Source: Bdellovibrionota bacterium (GTDB lineage Bacteria > Bdellovibrionota > Bdellovibrionia > Bdellovibrionales > Bdellovibrionaceae). Taken from it: a DNA stretch of 47,381 nt. Numbering within the stretch: position 1 is the first letter of the stretch; each line of letters starts with the position of its first letter. Shown one piece after another: positions 22,395-33,766 of the stretch. The notes under the pieces are model-generated. The model did not search any database and was not told where the DNA came from. It was given only the letters and a program-made list of their open reading frames with translations. The translations under genes were made by a program, and so were the position numbers. The DNA lies in NCBI GenBank assembly GCA_963170155.1, contig CAUJGP010000007.1:1-47381 (forward strand), in the 5' to 3' direction.

Positions 22395-23396
22395 ATGTCC
22401 CAATCAGACTCTGCTGTAGACTGCTTGGCCACTTATCTTCCCTATTGGAGAGCTCGAGGCCTCTCACAGGTAGATGCTTATATCATTTCTCATTTTTTGT
22501 TTAGTAGCGGCGCCTATAACGAGCTGATTCGCTTTTGTATTGAAAGTCTGGAAAAAGAAGATCCCATTGCTTGGCCCTACTTGGGCAAGGTCCTTCGCCT
22601 CCGGGAAAGTTCGACCCAAAGTCCTGTTTACCAGGCCTTAAAATCATATATCGAAGATCATCGCAGATGGGACGAATTTACAAACTCGGAATTATTTGAC
22701 GTTCTCTTTCCCCAGGAGGGAGATATTAAAGTCCAGCAGCTCCAAAGAAGAATTCAAATCAAGGAGCGGCACCGCCAGACTCTCTTAGATCAAATTCGGG
22801 TTTTCAATCAAAGCCGAAACTACAACATTGAAAAACAAGGTATCTTAAAATTTATTAAATTTTTTCCCAATGAAAAATTGGGACAAGAACTCCTCGAGCG
22901 ATATGAATTTGAGGATCTTCAAAGATTTTTTCACAGATACCAAAATGAAAAGCAATTAGAACAAAAAGCTAAGCCCCAGACTTTCACTGAAGAAGAAAAA
23001 AAATTATTGCAGCATTTTTTTGAAAATACACGTAATCAGGCCTCTCAGGCCCTTGAAAGTTACTTATATTTTTTTCTTTTCTTAGAAGATTACTCCCACG
23101 CCTTGGAGCTCATCACCCAAATAAAACCATCTCCCGCTAAAGATTGGCTTTATTTAGACCTTCTTTTATTGAATCGTAAGTTTGCAGCCGCTTTAGCCTA
23201 CATTCATGAAGAATTAGAGCCTCTGCACCAATCAGAGGCTACTTTTTATTCTGCTAAAATCTACTATGTGGCCCAATGCTTATGGGGTCTCGGCGAGCCA
23301 GCAAAAGCGATCGATCTCATGCACAATTTAACAAATGTGCACCCAGACTATAGACTAGCCTCCTCTTTTCTGAAAGAATGGAAGTCTGAGTTATGA
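22395..23396 (+). CDS. helical-repeat protein encoded upstream of tamB
   Basis: This 333-residue soluble-looking protein is mostly alpha-helical, with TPR-like pairs near the C-terminus (YFFLFLEDYSHALELI, LLLNRKFAAALAYI, YYVAQCLWGLGEPAKAIDLM). It has no signal peptide and a charged central region (residues 105-205). The ATG at 22395 has no ribosome binding site. The frame is open upstream, and a CTG at 22359 preceded by GGGAG would add twelve residues. The stop overlaps the tamB start (ATGA), which strongly suggests co-translation with the TamB/TamA system. Function is unknown; a cytoplasmic scaffold for envelope assembly is a guess. Confidence 0.75.
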   Translation: MSQSDSAVDCLATYLPYWRARGLSQVDAYIISHFLFSSGAYNELIRFCIESLEKEDPIAWPYLGKVLRLRESSTQSPVYQALKSYIEDHRRWDEFTNSELFDVLFPQEGDIKVQQLQRRIQIKERHRQTLLDQIRVFNQSRNYNIEKQGILKFIKFFPNEKLGQELLERYEFEDLQRFFHRYQNEKQLEQKAKPQTFTEEEKKLLQHFFENTRNQASQALESYLYFFLFLEDYSHALELITQIKPSPAKDWLYLDLLLLNRKFAAALAYIHEELEPLHQSEATFYSAKIYYVAQCLWGLGEPAKAIDLMHNLTNVHPDYRLASSFLKEWKSEL

Positions 23397-26300
23397 GAAA
23401 AGCGCTTTGGATCATCATACCATCATTTCTATTTGTGACACTCTTGAGCACGCTTTGGCATTTCAGCGAAAAAAAAATGGCTCTTTTTCTTCGCGATCAA
23501 ATTCAAGAGCAGGTTAAGTTAAAAACAAATTGGGATCTTAAAATTGAAACAGTTCAGCTTTTTTTAGTTCCTCCAAAAGTCGATATCTCCACGATCACCT
23601 TAACACCGCCCTCTGGCATAACGTGGATCACTCCCGTCACAATGGAATCTGTTTCAGGTAGCCTTGACATTCTTAATCTCTTAGCCGGGCAAATCAAGTT
23701 CTCCAATATTCAAATCAAAGGCCCTCACACCGAAATTACACTCAGTGACATCCCTCCCTCTCCCAAGCCCCTCGAGGTTCTCCCCATCAAAGAAATTTTT
23801 GACGCTCTCCAAGTCATCCAAATAAAAATGCTTTTGATCGATAAGACAAATATTCAAGTGAAGCAGAACAAAAAAACAGAGCCCTTACACGTCACGGGTG
23901 GCTTGCTATTTCAAACGACACCTCAAACGATCCATTACAGCCTTAAAGCTCAGATTGAAGCCAAGCAAAAAAAGCAAAAACTGATTGATCAAAGTTCAAA
24001 TCCTCAAATAGAGGCCAATAATGAAAAAGTCGCAGAGAACCTCCAAACTCTGCAAATCCAATCAAAAGGATCACTGACTTCCAAATCGTTACGCGTGACA
24101 GGTTTGGAGCTTGAAGCCTCACAATCTAAAATCGAATTGCAAGGAGAATTTCTCCAATTCGCAAATGTCATCACCCGCCCTCAATTTTCTGGCCTCGTCG
24201 ATCTTTCTCTCGATGGCCATACTCTCATGAATTGGCTTTCGCTCCTTGAGCTCCCCACAGCTTCTCTGAAGCTCGAGGGTCATCTCCGATCCAGTGGTAA
24301 AATTGAAATTGAAAAATGGAAACAACCTTCCTTTGATCTCAAAACAACAGTCAAAGATGCCAAACTCAACGAGCACAGCATCGGTTCTATTCAATCTCAA
24401 CTACGATTTAACAAATCAAAAATCAATACAGACGAACTAATATTAATTCATCCCGCTGGTGAGCTTGCGCTCAAGGGCTTAAAGTGGGACCTTGAACAAG
24501 ACACCATAGAATCCAAAGTGGATTTAAAAACACTCGATCTACAAAAATTATTTATCGATATTGGATTAAAGCAAATTCCTGTGGATTTGTGGGTGAGTTC
24601 TCTTTTGCAATGTAAAGGGCATCTCCAAGAATTCAAAATAGATTGCCAAGGGAAAGTTGAAGGCTCCAACCTCGATGTGAGAACCGGAATGAAGTCCTCC
24701 TCCATTGTTTCTCTCAATCAGTTTTCTGGAGAAGGGACTGTTTCTGTAGACACTCAAGAAGTTCGCTATGACTCTAGCGTCGTGCTCCCTCTTTCTCGTG
24801 GTCACTCCAAAGGGACCATTCATTTTCACACAGGGTTTATTATTGATTTTGAATCCAAAGATTTTGACTTTCAAGATATTCCCTCGATCTCCGGCCTTGA
24901 CTTTGAAGGTAAAGCCCAGCTTCAAGGCCGAACGCAAGGCACTTCAGCGGCCGCCACTCTCGCCATTTCTTTAGGAGCAGAAAACTTTTGGTTTGAAAAC
25001 TTTGGCCTTGGCTCAGTCAATGGAAAAGTATCCTATGAAAAAGGACATCTTAAAATAGACGTTCCCGACGGCCAACTAGGCAACAGCCAGTACCTCGCAC
25101 AGTTGGATGTGAACCTCTCTCAATCCACAATCAAAGGTGTGGTGGAAAGCCCGCACCTTGAAGCCAAAGATGCCATTGCCGCTCTCCATAAGCGAGTTCC
25201 CATTCCGATTGAAATCTCTGGTGTTGGAAAAACTCGAGCTCGATTTGAAGGCCCTTTTCATCTCGGCGACCTATCCTACTCTTTCGAAGGAATTTTGCAA
25301 AAAGGAAGTATTCAGGGTGAGCTGTATGATGAAGTCAAATGGTCTTGGCTGGCAGATAAAGGCTCTGTTTCTATCACCAATAATACTCTTCAAAAAGGTC
25401 AGGCTCTCATTTCGGTTAATGGAACATCAACACCCACCGGACACCTAAATCTCGTCGTGCGAGGAAATAATTTTAAATTAGAAGAAAGTTCTCTTTTGTC
25501 AAAATACGCACCTTCCTTGGGCGGTGATCTGAACTTTCAAATGAATGTTAAGAATCACATTCTAAAACCAGATATCCAGCTGGAAGGCCGTATTGAAAAT
25601 ACCACACTAGGAGACTCTGATCTTCCTGATTCTAATATTGGATTCCACACTGATGGATCAGGCTTAAAGGTCGACCTTGAACTCCTAGGAAAACAAATTC
25701 AATTTAATATGCATTTACCGTACAATAAGCAAGATCAAGCTCATCTTGTTTTTGAAGTACAAAGATTCAACTTTACCGACTTTTTAAGCAGTGCCCTTGG
25801 AAGCCCGCTTCAATCTGAGTATGATTCTCTTCTCAGTGTAAAAATGGATTTAACTTCTAAAAATAACAATCTCTTTCAAGGAACAGGTTCTTTAATCGTT
25901 GATGATCTCTTTCTTTCCAGAAACGAATATTTCCTTAAGAATGAAAAGCCCATGATGATTGAATTTCAAAATGGCTTCGCTAGTTTGAGACATTTTTCAC
26001 TCCGTGGCCCCAAAGGTCAAGTTCGTGTTGAAGGAGAGAAATTCAGTTCCAACCAGCTTAAAATCAACATCAATGGGTTCTTGGATGTTCAACTTCTGCA
26101 ATTATTCGCGCCCTTCATTGATAATATGAGCGGTCCCGTCAATGGCCAGGTGAAAATCACAGGAAGCCTTCAATCACCAGAAATTTACGGAAACTTGGAT
26201 ATTAATGAAATAGCTTTTCGAATCAAAGGCTTTCCAGCACTTTTCGATCATATCAGCGCTCATTTGGAGTTCAGTCAAAAACGCATTCTCATAGAATCAG

Positions 26301-27379
26301 TTCGTGGAGCCATGGCAGGGGGCTCTTTAACCGGGAATGGAAGCATCACGATCAACGGTGCTCGAGATATGCCTATTGATATCAAAGCGCAACTAAGAAA
26401 TATCCAATTAGAAGTTCCAGAAGATATCGAAAGTTCGGGATCAGCTGACATCACTCTCTCGGGTCATTGGTTCCCTTACTCTTTAAGCGGCACTTACCGC
26501 GTAAACCAAGCCTTTATTGATAAAGACTTCAGTGCCGACTCTGGAGAAAATCAGCTACGACAATCCATCTATTTACCAAAAGAGCTTACAAAATCCAGTT
26601 TTGACCCTGTTTTATTAGATCTACAGATTTATCTTGATAAGCGTGTTGAAATTAAAAACCCACAAATCGCTGGTCTTCTTTCAGGACAACTACAAGTGAA
26701 AGGTCCTCCACAAGCACCTCTTTTATTCGGCTCCATTAAAACGCTTCCTCAAGCCCAACTCTTCTTCCGAGATAAAATATTTGATATTCAATCAGGGCTT
26801 ATTAAATTCAATGATCCCAATGAACTCAATCCTGAACTTTTTTTTACAGCTCGATCCTACATTGAAAATTATGAAATCAATCTGCTGCTTCAAGGGAAAG
26901 CCAAGGCATTGCAATTTTCTCTCACTAGCCAACCTCCTTTAGAAGAACAAGATATTATTTCTCTTCTTGCTCTGGGAGTGACAAACCAAAAATTAGCGAC
27001 TCAAATTCAATCCAACCAACAAGCCACTCAAATGGGAAATCAACTCGGTGCTGCGATTATTTCAGCGAATCCTTTAAATAAAGAAATAAAGCAAAGTTTG
27101 GGAGTAGATGTCAAATTTTCATCAAACTATGATGATACAAAAAATGAAACGATCAATAAAGTCACTGCTTCCAAAGAACTGATTCCCAAGAAGTTGAATG
27201 CGACAGCCTCTCTCAGTGAAAATCAAAGAGATGTTCGCTTCCAATATTTAATCAACGATCGCCTTAGTAGTGTTTTAACTTATGAAACCACTGAGAATCA
27301 ATCCGGCACCAATAGCAGCACACAACCCTCCACCAGTATTTTTGGTTTGGATCTTGAATATAAGGTGGAATTTAAATGA
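23393..27379 (+). CDS. tamB: TamB/AsmA-family inner-membrane protein of envelope assembly or lipid transport
   Basis: This 1328-residue protein has one N-terminal transmembrane anchor (ALWIIIPSFLFVTLLSTLWHF). A very long beta-rich periplasmic region follows, built of repeating beta strands as in AsmA-like lipid-transfer proteins. The C-terminal DUF490/TamB domain is clear: PQAQLFFRDKIFDIQSGLIK, ELFFTARSYIENYEINLLL, QPPLEEQDIISLLALG, and an end rich in beta strands. TamB spans the periplasm and partners an Omp85 protein for outer-membrane protein insertion or phospholipid movement. The length is close to E. coli TamB. It overlaps both neighbours as ATGA (TPR gene and tamA-like gene), forming one unit. 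Confidence 0.92.
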   Translation: MRKALWIIIPSFLFVTLLSTLWHFSEKKMALFLRDQIQEQVKLKTNWDLKIETVQLFLVPPKVDISTITLTPPSGITWITPVTMESVSGSLDILNLLAGQIKFSNIQIKGPHTEITLSDIPPSPKPLEVLPIKEIFDALQVIQIKMLLIDKTNIQVKQNKKTEPLHVTGGLLFQTTPQTIHYSLKAQIEAKQKKQKLIDQSSNPQIEANNEKVAENLQTLQIQSKGSLTSKSLRVTGLELEASQSKIELQGEFLQFANVITRPQFSGLVDLSLDGHTLMNWLSLLELPTASLKLEGHLRSSGKIEIEKWKQPSFDLKTTVKDAKLNEHSIGSIQSQLRFNKSKINTDELILIHPAGELALKGLKWDLEQDTIESKVDLKTLDLQKLFIDIGLKQIPVDLWVSSLLQCKGHLQEFKIDCQGKVEGSNLDVRTGMKSSSIVSLNQFSGEGTVSVDTQEVRYDSSVVLPLSRGHSKGTIHFHTGFIIDFESKDFDFQDIPSISGLDFEGKAQLQGRTQGTSAAATLAISLGAENFWFENFGLGSVNGKVSYEKGHLKIDVPDGQLGNSQYLAQLDVNLSQSTIKGVVESPHLEAKDAIAALHKRVPIPIEISGVGKTRARFEGPFHLGDLSYSFEGILQKGSIQGELYDEVKWSWLADKGSVSITNNTLQKGQALISVNGTSTPTGHLNLVVRGNNFKLEESSLLSKYAPSLGGDLNFQMNVKNHILKPDIQLEGRIENTTLGDSDLPDSNIGFHTDGSGLKVDLELLGKQIQFNMHLPYNKQDQAHLVFEVQRFNFTDFLSSALGSPLQSEYDSLLSVKMDLTSKNNNLFQGTGSLIVDDLFLSRNEYFLKNEKPMMIEFQNGFASLRHFSLRGPKGQVRVEGEKFSSNQLKININGFLDVQLLQLFAPFIDNMSGPVNGQVKITGSLQSPEIYGNLDINEIAFRIKGFPALFDHISAHLEFSQKRILIESVRGAMAGGSLTGNGSITINGARDMPIDIKAQLRNIQLEVPEDIESSGSADITLSGHWFPYSLSGTYRVNQAFIDKDFSADSGENQLRQSIYLPKELTKSSFDPVLLDLQIYLDKRVEIKNPQIAGLLSGQLQVKGPPQAPLLFGSIKTLPQAQLFFRDKIFDIQSGLIKFNDPNELNPELFFTARSYIENYEINLLLQGKAKALQFSLTSQPPLEEQDIISLLALGVTNQKLATQIQSNQQATQMGNQLGAAIISANPLNKEIKQSLGVDVKFSSNYDDTKNETINKVTASKELIPKKLNATASLSENQRDVRFQYLINDRLSSVLTYETTENQSGTNSSTQPSTSIFGLDLEYKVEFK

Positions 27380-30237
27380 AAGGGCTAATCTCGGTTCATC
27401 ACTTTTTTCGCTTCTTCTTAAAAGACGCGACGAATGCGGGGTTACTCCTTCGACATGGTTTCTTTTCTTCTTTTCGTTGCCTGATACTCTTATTCACTCT
27501 TTGCTCGGGGGTTTCTCTCGTTAGTTTTGGAAAGCCTCTTCAATTTGGAAATCTCTCGCCAGAACTCTATGCAGAAGCTTCAGAAGCTTTTCCAAATCTT
27601 CTCACACAAAACCCAGCTCCCTCTGAGCTTGACCAATTGTTACGATGGTTGATGAACAAAGGAATCTTTGAAAATCTTCAAATCGTTGAGATTAACGGAG
27701 CTCTCCAATTACAATTCCGTTACCTCAAGAATATCAAACAAATCAATTACACTGGATTAAACACTTTTGATGCCCGAGAGTTAAACCAATGGATTCCCAT
27801 TGAGACAGGACAAAAATTTGATGCTCGCATTCTGAATGAGATTAAAGAAAAAATCATTAATTATTACTCAGAACAAGCTTATCTAAATACAAAGGTAGAG
27901 GTGAGTTATGTGGATTCTTCCGAAAACACTGTCGATTTGAACATTCAAATTCAAGAAGGAGAGCCACTTAAAGTAAACTCTATTTTCTTGGATTGCAAAA
28001 ACAGCGAGCTCAATCAAAAACTCAATCAGATTTTGAAAAAAAATATTGGAAAAGTTTATAATCCGCAGTTAATGGCCTCAATCCCAAAGCAAATTCAGGA
28101 TTACCTGAGATTTAATAACTACATCCGAACGAGCATTCAAGGCCCAGAAAGCCATACCAATGCCAATAAAACCAGTGTCGATTTAACTTATCGTCTCGAA
28201 CGAACAGAGCAGTACTCTATTGTCTTTGAAGGTAACGATGCCTTTCCAACACCTCGCCTTCTCTCCGTTGTTGAAATCAACTCTATTTCATCTGCCAGTC
28301 CCAACGTGCATGCAGAACTCACCAATAAAATCAAAGAGTTTTACTGGAAGAAAGGATACGCCCGAGCGGAAGTCAAAGGAGAAGAGAAAATTGCTATTAA
28401 CGATGTTAAATCGACTTTATTATTTCAAATCAATGAAGGAAGACCCATTAAAATTGAAGCGATCGAACTCCAAGGATCTTTCAGTCAAACAAATAAATAT
28501 TACCAAAAATTCTTAAAAAACCATAGTGGCGACACAATTTCCAGTGGCTACTTTCACCGAAATGATTTTGAAATAGGATTAAAGAATCTCATCATTGAAC
28601 TTCAAAACTCCGGTTACTTAAAAGCCAAACTCATTTCATCCCGCTATGTCTATAATAAAAATAAAGATAAAATCACCATTGTTGTGAACCTCGATGAAGG
28701 GCCTCTGACAAAAATCAATGCTATCACTTATCGTGGACTTAAAAATATCAGCGAGGAAGAACTCAATCAAACTCTCAAAATCAGCAAGGGAGAAGCCTTA
28801 AGACTGGTGCATCTGGAAGAAGGGTTACAAAACATTAAAAGTCATGCTCAGCAAAAAGGATATCTAGAGTTCAGAATTCTCAATGAAAAAGACAATCTCG
28901 TTCAATATAGCGCCGACAACACTCTTGCAACTATTGACCTTCTCATTGAAGAAGGTCCACAGATTAAAGTAGGCTCCTTGCTTATTGATGGCAATACTTT
29001 AACAAAAGAATACGTGATTCATAAAGAAATTGATTTTCAAGTGGGGGATATTCTCACTCCTGGAAAAATTGAGGAATCTACTCGACGTTTACAAAAATTA
29101 GGTCTTTTCAACTCTGTGGAAATAAGAACTTTGGAGCAAAGAACTCAAATTTCAGATCGCACTGTCATTATCAAAATCTCTGAAAGAATGCCGGGACTTT
29201 TCAACTTTGGTGCGGGAGTGACCAATGAACGACAACTCACTCTCCGAGGGTTTACAGGTATTGCGTACAGGAATATCCAAGGAACCGCTCGCGGAATTTC
29301 CACCCGTGCTGAACTCAATTACAACGTGGCAGACATTAAATTTCCAGAACTCAAAATCACAGCTGGTTATCTTGAACCCTATCTTCTGGACTCTCGAACA
29401 AAAGGCCGTGTGAACTTCACTCGTGCCACTCAAATTATGAACTACGATGATCGAACAGCCAGTGACACTTATCAATTGGATTTTTTATTGGAACAAAACC
29501 TTACATCTCATATCCTGCTCAGTTATGACCTTTGGAATATTTCGCATGTTCGGGATTTTGAGATTGATTCTAATCGAGAAAAACTTCTTATTGATCTTGC
29601 CTCTACGGGCCCAGCCATTGAAATTGACTACCGTGATCACCCATTTAATCCCACTCAAGGGACCTTCACTCGCATGCAGATTGAATACTCCAATCCCCTT
29701 CTCGGAAACTCAGGATCTATCGAGTTTTTAAGAACGACAGCGAGCTTCACTCATTATCTTCCTCTGCGCTCTTCTAACCCCATTGTATGGGCTAATTCTG
29801 TCAGAGCCGGAGATCTTTTGAACCTCAGTAAATCCGAAGGAGTTCCTTATGATAAAAAAGGGTTTCTTCTTGGAGGTCTTTCGACCATCCGAGGCTACGA
29901 GGCTGGAACTCGAGAACGCTTTCCTAATAACGCGGACTTAATGATTCCCAATTCAGAAACTTATCGTCTCAAATCCCGAAGCCAATTTTATCTCGTCAAA
30001 TCAGAACTTCGCTTTCCCATCTGGGGCGCCATCGGTGGCGCTCTTTTTTATGATGGAGGTCTTGTTCAAGTTGATGATATTAAATTTAAGGACCCTTATC
30101 GAGATTCAGCGGGAATTGGACTTCGTTATTCCACTCCTGTAGGACCTTTAAATATAGAAGTTGCCAAAAAGCTTGATTATAATAAAGAACGAGGCGAAAG
30201 CGAATACCTTTACCATATTTCTTTTGGTACTTTTTAG
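27376..30237 (+). CDS. Omp85-family outer-membrane protein (TamA/BamA-like) with about seven POTRA repeats
   Basis: This 953-residue protein has a signal peptide or anchor around residues 34-52. About seven POTRA-like repeats span residues 50-600; five repeat ends read IQEGEP, LERTEQ, NEGRPI, LDEGPLT and IEEGPQI. A C-terminal beta-barrel of about 350 residues carries DYRDHPFNPTQGTF, the lid motif GLSTIRGYEAG (VRGF/Y type), GGALFYDGG and a terminal phenylalanine for BAM recognition. E. coli TamA has three POTRAs and about 577 residues and BamA has five, so this is longer than both. Overlap with tamB makes TamA the best functional label, but BamA-like roles are possible. Confidence 0.9.
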   Translation: MKGLISVHHFFRFFLKDATNAGLLLRHGFFSSFRCLILLFTLCSGVSLVSFGKPLQFGNLSPELYAEASEAFPNLLTQNPAPSELDQLLRWLMNKGIFENLQIVEINGALQLQFRYLKNIKQINYTGLNTFDARELNQWIPIETGQKFDARILNEIKEKIINYYSEQAYLNTKVEVSYVDSSENTVDLNIQIQEGEPLKVNSIFLDCKNSELNQKLNQILKKNIGKVYNPQLMASIPKQIQDYLRFNNYIRTSIQGPESHTNANKTSVDLTYRLERTEQYSIVFEGNDAFPTPRLLSVVEINSISSASPNVHAELTNKIKEFYWKKGYARAEVKGEEKIAINDVKSTLLFQINEGRPIKIEAIELQGSFSQTNKYYQKFLKNHSGDTISSGYFHRNDFEIGLKNLIIELQNSGYLKAKLISSRYVYNKNKDKITIVVNLDEGPLTKINAITYRGLKNISEEELNQTLKISKGEALRLVHLEEGLQNIKSHAQQKGYLEFRILNEKDNLVQYSADNTLATIDLLIEEGPQIKVGSLLIDGNTLTKEYVIHKEIDFQVGDILTPGKIEESTRRLQKLGLFNSVEIRTLEQRTQISDRTVIIKISERMPGLFNFGAGVTNERQLTLRGFTGIAYRNIQGTARGISTRAELNYNVADIKFPELKITAGYLEPYLLDSRTKGRVNFTRATQIMNYDDRTASDTYQLDFLLEQNLTSHILLSYDLWNISHVRDFEIDSNREKLLIDLASTGPAIEIDYRDHPFNPTQGTFTRMQIEYSNPLLGNSGSIEFLRTTASFTHYLPLRSSNPIVWANSVRAGDLLNLSKSEGVPYDKKGFLLGGLSTIRGYEAGTRERFPNNADLMIPNSETYRLKSRSQFYLVKSELRFPIWGAIGGALFYDGGLVQVDDIKFKDPYRDSAGIGLRYSTPVGPLNIEVAKKLDYNKERGESEYLYHISFGTF

Positions 30238-31192: not shown

Positions 31193-33766
31193 TTAAAATA
31201 TTCTTTGACAAGAGCTTGTTTTTTCTTTCATTGAAGTTGCTTCGGGTTCTGTTCCAAAAAATCGATCTTTGAATGCACTTTTAACTAAGTTGAAAGTTGA
31301 GCCATTATTCTTAAGTGCAACCGCGGTCATAATAGAATCGATTCTTTTTTTAGATTCTGATGCTTCAAGTATTTGATTGATGGCTGTAAGTCCTCGATTC
31401 AATGCAGTCACATTCGAACTCAGGCTCATCCCTTTTGAAAGTGACCATTCTAACCAAGCTCGAGCTTTCATTGAACTTCTTTGCGGATGATTTGTTACTA
31501 ATGTGATAAGTTCTGATTTAGATATTTTATTCTCTTCAGGCCTTGAAAGAGCCCAAATATAATCAGCAATAAGCTCTGGGCTCATCAGATATTCAGCAAC
31601 AGCTAATTTTATGAAAGTATTTCGCTCATTCTCAGTCAACCGACCAATCATACCGAAATCAAAAAGATTAACGATAATATGATCATGAGACTTCATGACA
31701 ACGTTAAAATTTCCTTGGTGCAGATCCGTATGGAAGAAAAAACCCGTAAAGAAAGTCCTTTCAACCCAATGCTCAGAAATAGCTTCGGCAACTTCAACTG
31801 CTTGCTTTTTATTGTTGGCCGCAAAGGACTCAAACTTTTCTCCATCAAGCCAACTTGAGTAAATCACATCTTTCTGATAACTTTTGTAAGTCTTAGGCAC
31901 CATGAATTCAATTTTAGCAATAGAGCTGCTTTTCAGTGTTTTTTGGTACTGAAGAGCTCCTTCCTCTTGATTTCTTTTAGTCAACTCCACATTGAGCTCT
32001 TCACGCGCCATTTCGTGAATGTCCGAAAGAATGGGTTCAATCAGAGGGAAATCATGAGCGCGCAGGAGAGGGTCCTTATCAATGACCTCAGCAACGCGTG
32101 CGATAAGCTGTTCTTCTTTAGAAATATTCTCTCTTATGGAATCCTTCAGAACTCGAGCCGCTATTTTTAGATTATTACCACTGTCATCTTTGTATATTGC
32201 CTGGTACGTTTGCGCCATTGTACCAACTTTTGGTTCTTTATTTATTGAAATAAGGCGCATTCCTTCAGGCCCATTTCTAAGTCGTGCTTCGACCTTTTCC
32301 CAAGGGGTTTTAAGACCGGCATCTTCAACTTCATTAAATATCTTTCTGAGTTCTGGAGAGAAGTCCTTTCGGCGTCCTAAAATTTGTAGAAGTTTCTGCA
32401 TCTGTGGTCCCGAATATAAAACTAAAGTTCGAAAAACTTCTCTAAATGAATTCTCATGAGGTCGCTCAATAAGTCTTTTAATAATGTTCTTGCTATCAGC
32501 GTATGAGATAGTTGAAAAATAAGTTTTGAACAGCAGCTCAAAAAATCTTTGATCCGCCGCTCGTGTAAAACTCATCTCTTTTGAAGCTAAGATTTCTTCA
32601 CTGATTTGACGAATTTTATTCCATTCGCGTTTGAATTTTTCAGCAGCCTTCTCGAAAATCACAAGTTTGGCTCCATCATCATCCAACAAAATTTTTCGAT
32701 AAGTATGATCTGGTCCGATAAGATAATCAATCGTAATGCGAGTCAATCCTAGCTCAATATGCTTTCGAGCTATATTCAAGGCCCGATCACGCCTCTCTTG
32801 ATAGCTTTTTGCTTTTTCCTCATACTCACTTCCACGGTTTGGGTACTTGTCTTCAAGTTGTTTCATATACTTATTGTATTCCTCTAAAACCTCATTGCTG
32901 GCCACTTGATTTTTTTCATCTGACATTTTTTGATACAATTTAAAATCAATTTCTTTTAAAGAAACATGGAAATACAAGTTGGTTGACCCACCTAAAAAAC
33001 CTATAAGGTTTTCGGCCTTGCTACCCTCACTCCAATCTCCCAAAATTCCAGCGGGAACATTCAATCCCTTTGCTTTTTCTTTTATTTCATCACTGAGAAA
33101 ATTAAATTCGTCCGTTAAACTTTTTTCAAAATTTTTTCTATCCTTAGAACTAGCAATTCGTATGTAACGAGTTTTCTCCTCTTTGAAATCCTCCGCATAG
33201 TATTTTTGGATCTGACGAAGAGTGGTGTTTAATAAGTTTATTTTTTCTGAATCTGTTTTGTCAGATCCATAGAGTAGGGTCTTTAGAATCAAATTTTTGA
33301 AAATATAATTTTTGAGAGGCCCTACTTGATCCGCTCTTTCAATACCTGTAAAACCATACCTATGAATAAAGTAATGCTCCACAATTGAGCGAAGTCGTGG
33401 GCTGGTTTTTGGAGAGTCCATAATTTCAATTAAATAATTGTATCGTTCATCATAAGTCTTTATTTGATCTAGATCACTTGTGAGCTTTTGGAACTGCACT
33501 CTTCCTTCCTGATCCCATGTTCTTTTTTCAGATTCAGGTATAAAATCTGGGATTTCACCTTTACGGTCGCTCCCTTGAAATATTTTATTTGCTTCCCTAA
33601 AAGCACCCTCCCATGGAGATTCAACTTCAGAATGAAATACGGCATCACGTGGCTTGCGAATATCAGGGCCAAGCATTTGGAAGTAGTATAAGTTTTCGTT
33701 TGCACTGGTATCCCAAGCGACTAAAAGAAATGAAATAAACAATACTCTAAACTTTGTTGATGTCAT
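31193..33766 (-). CDS. exported UbiB/ABC1-like atypical kinase-fold protein
   Basis: This 857-residue protein starts with a signal peptide (KFRVLFISFLLVAWDTSA), so it is likely exported. About 480 residues of helical, charged sequence follow, matching no family I know. A UbiB/ABC1-type kinase domain lies at about 505-745. Its motifs are HTDLHQGN (679-686, usually HTDPHPGN) and FDFG with Asp703. The ATP-site lysine in the usual VAVKVL motif is replaced by Arg538 (IAARVL). Classical UbiB proteins are cytoplasmic or membrane proteins that support ubiquinone synthesis, so an exported form is unusual. The start at 33766 has AAAGGAAG upstream. It is monocistronic. Confidence 0.8.
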   Translation of the reverse strand: MTSTKFRVLFISFLLVAWDTSANENLYYFQMLGPDIRKPRDAVFHSEVESPWEGAFREANKIFQGSDRKGEIPDFIPESEKRTWDQEGRVQFQKLTSDLDQIKTYDERYNYLIEIMDSPKTSPRLRSIVEHYFIHRYGFTGIERADQVGPLKNYIFKNLILKTLLYGSDKTDSEKINLLNTTLRQIQKYYAEDFKEEKTRYIRIASSKDRKNFEKSLTDEFNFLSDEIKEKAKGLNVPAGILGDWSEGSKAENLIGFLGGSTNLYFHVSLKEIDFKLYQKMSDEKNQVASNEVLEEYNKYMKQLEDKYPNRGSEYEEKAKSYQERRDRALNIARKHIELGLTRITIDYLIGPDHTYRKILLDDDGAKLVIFEKAAEKFKREWNKIRQISEEILASKEMSFTRAADQRFFELLFKTYFSTISYADSKNIIKRLIERPHENSFREVFRTLVLYSGPQMQKLLQILGRRKDFSPELRKIFNEVEDAGLKTPWEKVEARLRNGPEGMRLISINKEPKVGTMAQTYQAIYKDDSGNNLKIAARVLKDSIRENISKEEQLIARVAEVIDKDPLLRAHDFPLIEPILSDIHEMAREELNVELTKRNQEEGALQYQKTLKSSSIAKIEFMVPKTYKSYQKDVIYSSWLDGEKFESFAANNKKQAVEVAEAISEHWVERTFFTGFFFHTDLHQGNFNVVMKSHDHIIVNLFDFGMIGRLTENERNTFIKLAVAEYLMSPELIADYIWALSRPEENKISKSELITLVTNHPQRSSMKARAWLEWSLSKGMSLSSNVTALNRGLTAINQILEASESKKRIDSIMTAVALKNNGSTFNLVKSAFKDRFFGTEPEATSMKEKTSSCQRIF

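Follow-up and report, generated by a model that had tools for sequence, protein, structure and literature searches.

The locus and its protein

The window is the whole stretch of DNA that was analysed, 47,381 nucleotides in length. It makes up the entire contig C7 of a 2.85-Mb genome in 37 contigs. At 31193..33766 on the minus strand, stop included, lies a gene for a UbiB-type protein of 857 amino acids that is predicted to be exported. The reading frame is intact. AAAGGAAG lies five bases upstream of its ATG start (33766), and its stop is at 31193-31195. An alternative TTG start would yield 873 amino acids; the ATG is preferred because the signal peptide then begins the protein.

The predicted signal peptide covers residues 1-22 (33701..33766, minus strand), as judged from the sequence itself and from the N-terminal signals across the family. 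It reads MTSTKFRVLFISFLLVAWDTSA, after which the mature protein would start with NEN. The hydrophobic core measures 11 residues, and there are two basic residues. A 19-residue membrane-like window is found nowhere in the protein.

Residues 23-439 (32450..33700, minus strand) form a helical N-terminal region of about 415 amino acids, which is longer than in relatives and is modelled with low confidence. Searches against Pfam and PDB sequences gave no match for this region, apart from a weak Pfam hit (0.00098) in one of ten rows. The sequence-only reading had described the N-terminal part as being of no known kind, and this description holds for the whole family.

The UbiB/COQ8 fold follows in residues 440-826 (31289..32449, minus strand). 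The ABC1 domain PF03109 matches residues 515-724 with 71 bits, where the Pfam cut-off is 22.9, so the protein belongs to ABC1. The UbiB equivalog model TIGR01982 gives 76 bits, far under its cut-off of 487.55, which places the protein outside that group. The chain ends in the tail SSCQRIF (31196..31216, minus strand), which holds C853, the sole cysteine of the protein.

A conserved operon partner was looked for, and none exists across genera among the relatives compared. The Bdellovibrio members adjoin an MFS transporter gene; other members adjoin unrelated genes. In the window, adjacent TamB-like (PF04357) and POTRA/Omp85 genes lie near the gene, at 23393-30237. No TamB or Omp85 neighbours were seen beside the relatives compared.

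Relatives and distribution

A PF03109 search of the genome itself found matches in four places. These are a canonical UbiB (C24, locus L001), an AMP-binding and ABC1 fusion (C29), the gene in the window, and a 789-aa paralogue (C21) with the same layout. Given the canonical UbiB, the gene in the window is an extra paralogue. The fusion, L163:7200-10403, joins an AMP-binding enzyme to an ABC1 domain in 1068 amino acids.

It had been proposed earlier to search for homologues with the same layout. This produced 58 distinct relatives, all from the phylum of Bdellovibrio, so the protein is no one-off. Bdellovibrio bacteriovorus strain kdesi is among the carriers of a family locus. For the Bdellovibrio genus the gene was found in 21 of the 24 genomes listed, a list that covers match-less genomes only in part.

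A search with the protein itself gave a match in 48 of 59 related genomes, mostly the canonical UbiB. Family-type matches at 1e-30 or better occur in 16 of these 59, the own genome included. A 17-row profile, at 1e-42 or better, finds the family in 56 of 290 genomes sampled from the phylum of Bdellovibrio. In the phylum of a Desulfobacula genome, the same profile has a single hit among 297 genomes; this frame of 565 aa, at 3.8e-44, is of canonical length. Another 297 genomes, from the phylum to which an Acidobacteriota genome belongs, gave no hits, and 19 mixed genomes gave none better than 4e-37; empty results of this kind show little when there is no positive control. The family search covered these three phyla and the mixed set.

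Export signals and membrane segments

A home-made rule and visual reading were used to call signal peptides, lipoboxes and membrane segments. By the simple signal test, 48 of the 58 members start with a signal-peptide-like sequence, versus 0 of 91 canonical UbiBs; of the neighbouring ORFs, 72 out of 228 pass. The earlier claim of export is thereby extended to the family. Ten members fail the test. L021 is cut at the start of its locus, and the others have hydrophobic starts by eye, several of them non-ATG.

A lipobox-like match is present in 8 of 58 members, and L168 adds one more by eye. The lipobox of L177 seems spurious, given the better signal downstream of it.

C-terminal membrane-like segments are typical of UbiB: 82 of the 91 have one. 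In the family this is 1 of 58, and the protein studied here has none.

The ATP site

The active site was compared in an alignment of the 58 family members with 31 of the 91 UbiBs. The mapping of residues onto ADCK3 is our own, made from the multiple and profile alignments. All features below are on the minus strand.

The position of the ATP-site lysine is taken by Arg538 (32153..32155), as the sequence-only reading had it. Of the 58 family members 49 have Arg, 8 have Lys and 1 has Gly, while the UbiBs have Lys in 31 of 31, a difference that goes beyond chance. A shifted lysine was considered as a replacement and rejected. K541, three residues on, sits at the Arg of the UbiB motif VAVKVxRP, and no other Lys fits in the alignment.

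The alphaC glutamate, present in 31 of 31 UbiBs, is Thr596 here (31979..31981). Across the family 40 members have Thr at this position, 7 have Glu, 5 Ala and 4 Ser, with Gly and Lys once each. One profile alignment puts Q600 at this position instead, so there is no Glu either way; T596 is favoured because of the spacing VVx(E/D)-7-EL. The Lys-Glu pair of the ATP site is therefore replaced by R538 and T596.

The KxGQ motif has lost its glycine. The protein has K458-L-L-Q461 (32384..32395), with L460 where Gly is found in 31 of 31 UbiBs and in none of the 58 members. K and Q are kept in all 58, which makes the family form KxPhiQ.

The Ala-rich loop AAASIAQVH is replaced by PKVGTMAQTYQA, residues 512-523 (32198..32233). 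AAAS becomes KVGT, with G515 at the position of ADCK3 Ala339 and T516 next to it. The last Ala is Gly in 49 of 58 members and the Ser is Thr in 49 of 58, for a family form of GxGT. Taken together, these changes are concerted: 35 of 58 members have R, T, G, T, versus K, E, A, S in all 31 UbiBs.

Other residues have been retained. The catalytic loop HTDLHQGN, residues 679-686 (31709..31732), has its D and N in 58 of 58 members and the His of HxD in 55. DFGM, residues 703-706 (31649..31660), has D and G in all 58. In the protein itself H679, D681, N686 and D703 are intact. Arg791 (31394..31396), the counterpart of ADCK3 Arg611, is Arg in 58 of 58 members and Lys in 31 of 31 UbiBs.

The earlier description of altered catalytic residues is thus half right. 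It applies to the ATP lysine and the alphaC glutamate, but not to the catalytic Asp and Asn or the DFG Asp, which are kept. HTDLHQGN does stand in for HTDPHPGN, but the substituted positions are not catalytic, and this change does not count as such an alteration.

According to excerpts of PMC4718504, Lys358 of ADCK3 pairs with Glu411, and Asp488 with Arg611. The same excerpts report that A339G turns the ADP preference of ADCK3 into one for ATP and allows autophosphorylation. Part of PMC7877690 terms this mutant hyperactive. The kept HxD, Asn and DFG, along with a Gly at the Ala339 position, could mean that some chemistry has been retained.

Structure

AlphaFold2 models were built from rows consisting of the protein, its kdesi relative and 31 UbiBs. 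Mean pLDDT values are 68.6 and 72.8. It had been suggested to model both halves: the UbiB part is confident and has the COQ8A fold, but the N-terminal part came out with low confidence.

Residues 440-826 align to COQ8A (7udp) with a VIA-align Z of 23.3, over 346 residues at an rmsd of 3.9. Mycobacterial ABC1 proteins come next, at Z 15-19, followed by RIO kinases at a Z of about 12. The models have the UbiB fold complete with predicted N-terminal KxGQ helices, toward which the 31 UbiB rows bias them. Sequence profiles agree with this fold (COQ8B 9tvk, E 1e-13).

Tree and history

The tree puts the 58 members in one clade apart from the 31 UbiBs, with an SH-aLRT of 100. It is a quick tree, made without the four diagnostic columns, with a third of the 91 UbiBs and with several long-branch rows.

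Seven members that have both Lys and Glu form the sister group of the remaining 51 (supports 98 and 95). Two changes between Lys and not-Lys are needed, one of them a reversal in L155. Four of the seven pass the signal test, and three are signal-like by eye. Since these basal members bear signals, export probably came before the recoding of the ATP site.

It is the C21 paralogue, and not the protein in the window, that adjoins the main Bdellovibrio branch. The latter is a long branch of uncertain placement.

The cysteine tail

A cysteine within the last 15 residues is found in 53 of 58 members, versus 7 of 91 UbiBs. In 42 of those 53 it is the only Cys of the last 620 residues. The usual forms are RCEMVFN, SCQRIF and MCLSFYSKK.

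A like tail is present in three out of three complete exported ClpB-like AAA+ proteins, as LCLRFYGWR and KCLAGYVFN in two other genomes and as ASCTKLFY in the own genome. These proteins are found at L257/L227 (own genome, C11:4317-6830), L157:9063-12080 and L226. Their layout is a signal peptide, an N-terminal region of no known kind, intact P-loop motifs and the Cys tail. It would be surprising to find an unfoldase of this ATP-driven type outside the cytoplasm. The canonical Clp-type paralogues, 27 rows with some genes twice, have neither signal nor tail.

An exported family of C26 peptidase/class-I GATase proteins has the tail in 15 of 15 loci (L279:2226-3248 and L288-L302), the best 15 in a set of 24 rows that spans 21 genomes. 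The own genome also encodes an exported M48 peptidase (L248:17446-19491, C24:197446-199491; 682 amino acids) that ends in SCRTVFN; of 58 other genomes, one holds a partial relative.

There are further exported proteins with such motifs. L219:2937-5177 has a signal peptide, RCEDFY and a MoxR-type AAA+ domain, where the tail-like Cys motif is at the mature N-terminus. L206:12003-14021 is an exported oxidoreductase-like protein with the tail RCKTFYRADH and weak similarity to UbiH-type hydroxylases (E 0.0019). At L246:14873-16608 and L247:9174-9941 an exported protein of about 255 amino acids, with YCYFFDRK-type ends, is present in three close copies; the one that was scanned has no Pfam match.

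The idea that a C-terminal Cys is a mass tag was tried on about a tenth of genome G036 and given up, as exported ORFs there have no clear excess. The tail was seen in 1 of 67 SP-class ORFs, namely the UbiB-type family member.

Over all the stretches compared, with the family members set aside, a tail pattern that was picked after the examples matches 15 of 577 ORFs in a permissive exported class, where shuffled tails predict 6.4, and 4 of 742 cytoplasm-class ORFs, where they predict 3.7, for a Fisher p of 0.0018. Among the 15, three are close copies of a single gene, and at least three are not tag-like (CSELNHVS, CRELRD, CNVLNKAQ). For these reasons the genome-wide excess is weak. Earlier patterns, with family members included, had Fisher p values of 0.005 and 0.003. 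Good conservation of the tail inside a few exported families that are unrelated makes a stronger case than the count of tails.

One hypothesis is that the similar tails are a single signal, served by a single machinery. In a wider and rather tentative form, the phylum of Bdellovibrio might export cytosol-type, cofactor-dependent enzymes (UbiB-type, ClpB-like AAA+, MoxR-type AAA+, C26/GATase, M48 peptidase and FAD-type oxidoreductase), whose mature end bears an undescribed tag. This tag would be Cys-x-x-hydrophobic-Phe/Tyr, within about 9 residues of the C-terminus, and would serve sorting or covalent anchoring, perhaps at places where nucleotides exist, such as in prey. If true, predatory bacteria would have in the shared Cys tail a new signal for protein targeting.

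What the protein may do

UbiB proteins have been studied in the cytoplasm and in the mitochondrial matrix, and the function of their kinase fold is still argued over. Free ATP is not expected outside the cytoplasm.

The export signals, the separate clade, the recoding and the fold are established by the comparisons above. Going by its sequence, the protein would act outside the cytoplasm and would have lost ordinary kinase chemistry. With the cleft and metal-binding residues retained but the Lys-Glu pair gone, a ligand-binding or regulatory role in the envelope is favoured. On balance, the protein probably belongs to an exported UbiB-fold clade whose members bind a ligand in the cleft or are pseudo-enzymes, and is an envelope regulator or ligand carrier and not an ordinary ATP-driven kinase. 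The seven exported members that still have Lys and Glu speak against this reading, as do the signs of possibly retained chemistry noted above.

This could have come about as follows. A Sec signal peptide, with a lipobox in some relatives, would take a UbiB-type protein out of the cytoplasm. The fold, the cleft-closing KxxQ helices and the metal-binding residues would be retained, and after export the ATP-anchoring Lys-Glu pair would be replaced as a set. The UbiB cleft would go on to bind its ligand in the service of regulation or transport in the envelope. As a guess, that ligand could be either a nucleotide or a lipid of the isoprenoid type.

A special case of this explanation is that the protein moves isoprenoid lipids or quinones in the envelope, so that the lipid role proposed for UbiB would have an exported counterpart. 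This is possible, if somewhat doubtful. The KxxQ helices and the fold are kept, and excerpts of PMC8346625 describe CoQ distribution in yeast as regulated by UbiB proteins. However, the C-terminal membrane helices of UbiB are absent, and no quinone or lipid gene recurs nearby. With no neighbour conserved across genera, the gene context gives lipid handling no support.

As the main rival, the protein could be a phosphotransferase or ATPase whose site has been rewired but is still active, at work in places that offer ATP, for example on or in prey during predation. The D681, N686, D703 and R791 positions are conserved without exception, the Gly at the Ala339 position is the change that activates ADCK3 in the excerpts cited above, and some of the same genomes, the own one included, encode exported AAA+ ATPases that have a similar tail and whose P-loops are intact. 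The spread of the gene over the Bdellovibrio-genus genomes listed also speaks for it. Such activity is nonetheless unlikely, given that the ATP Lys and the alphaC Glu have been lost together.

That the hydrophobic N-terminus has been misread and the protein is a cytoplasmic UbiB is very improbable, as signals recur in relatives with unlike first residues and sometimes with lipoboxes, the C-terminal helices are absent, the equivalog score is far too low, and the genome already has a canonical UbiB.

The preferred reading thus remains that of a cleft-binding envelope protein. Its fold is already known. The exported clade, the coordinated recoding and the tail are not described in the literature searched, which left most subscription journals outside; the excerpts of PMC12546842, PMC11656739 and PMC12622784 mention neither an exported UbiB-type protein nor the tail.

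A role outside the cytoplasm would not fit the known role of the UbiB fold. Here a natural exported clade has rebuilt the very residues that laboratory mutants have probed, namely the ATP Lys, Ala339 and KxGQ. The clade therefore offers a direct way to test which elements of the fold count where ATP is not expected.

Comparison with known systems

Secreted kinase folds are not new. Fam20 secretory-pathway kinases and other secreted kinases and pseudokinases also combine export with a kinase fold. These are however different kinase families and eukaryotic, and the secretory pathway contains ATP.

The mycobacterial ABC1 proteins Rv3197 and MSMEG_1954 share the fold with the protein (Z 15-19, as noted above), and are likened to it by fold alone. 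Neither is known to be exported. Going by the titles of the entries, their structures were solved with ADP, AMPPNP or erythromycin.

UbiB, COQ8A (ADCK3) and COQ8B are the closest comparison. Shared are the fold, the K and Q of KxGQ, HxD...N, DFG and the counterpart of Arg611. Unlike UbiB and COQ8, the protein is predicted to be exported, and it has Arg for the ATP Lys, Thr for the alphaC Glu, GxGT for AAAS and KxPhiQ for KxGQ. It also differs from UbiB in lacking the C-terminal membrane helices, and in having a long N-terminal region and a C-terminal Cys tail.
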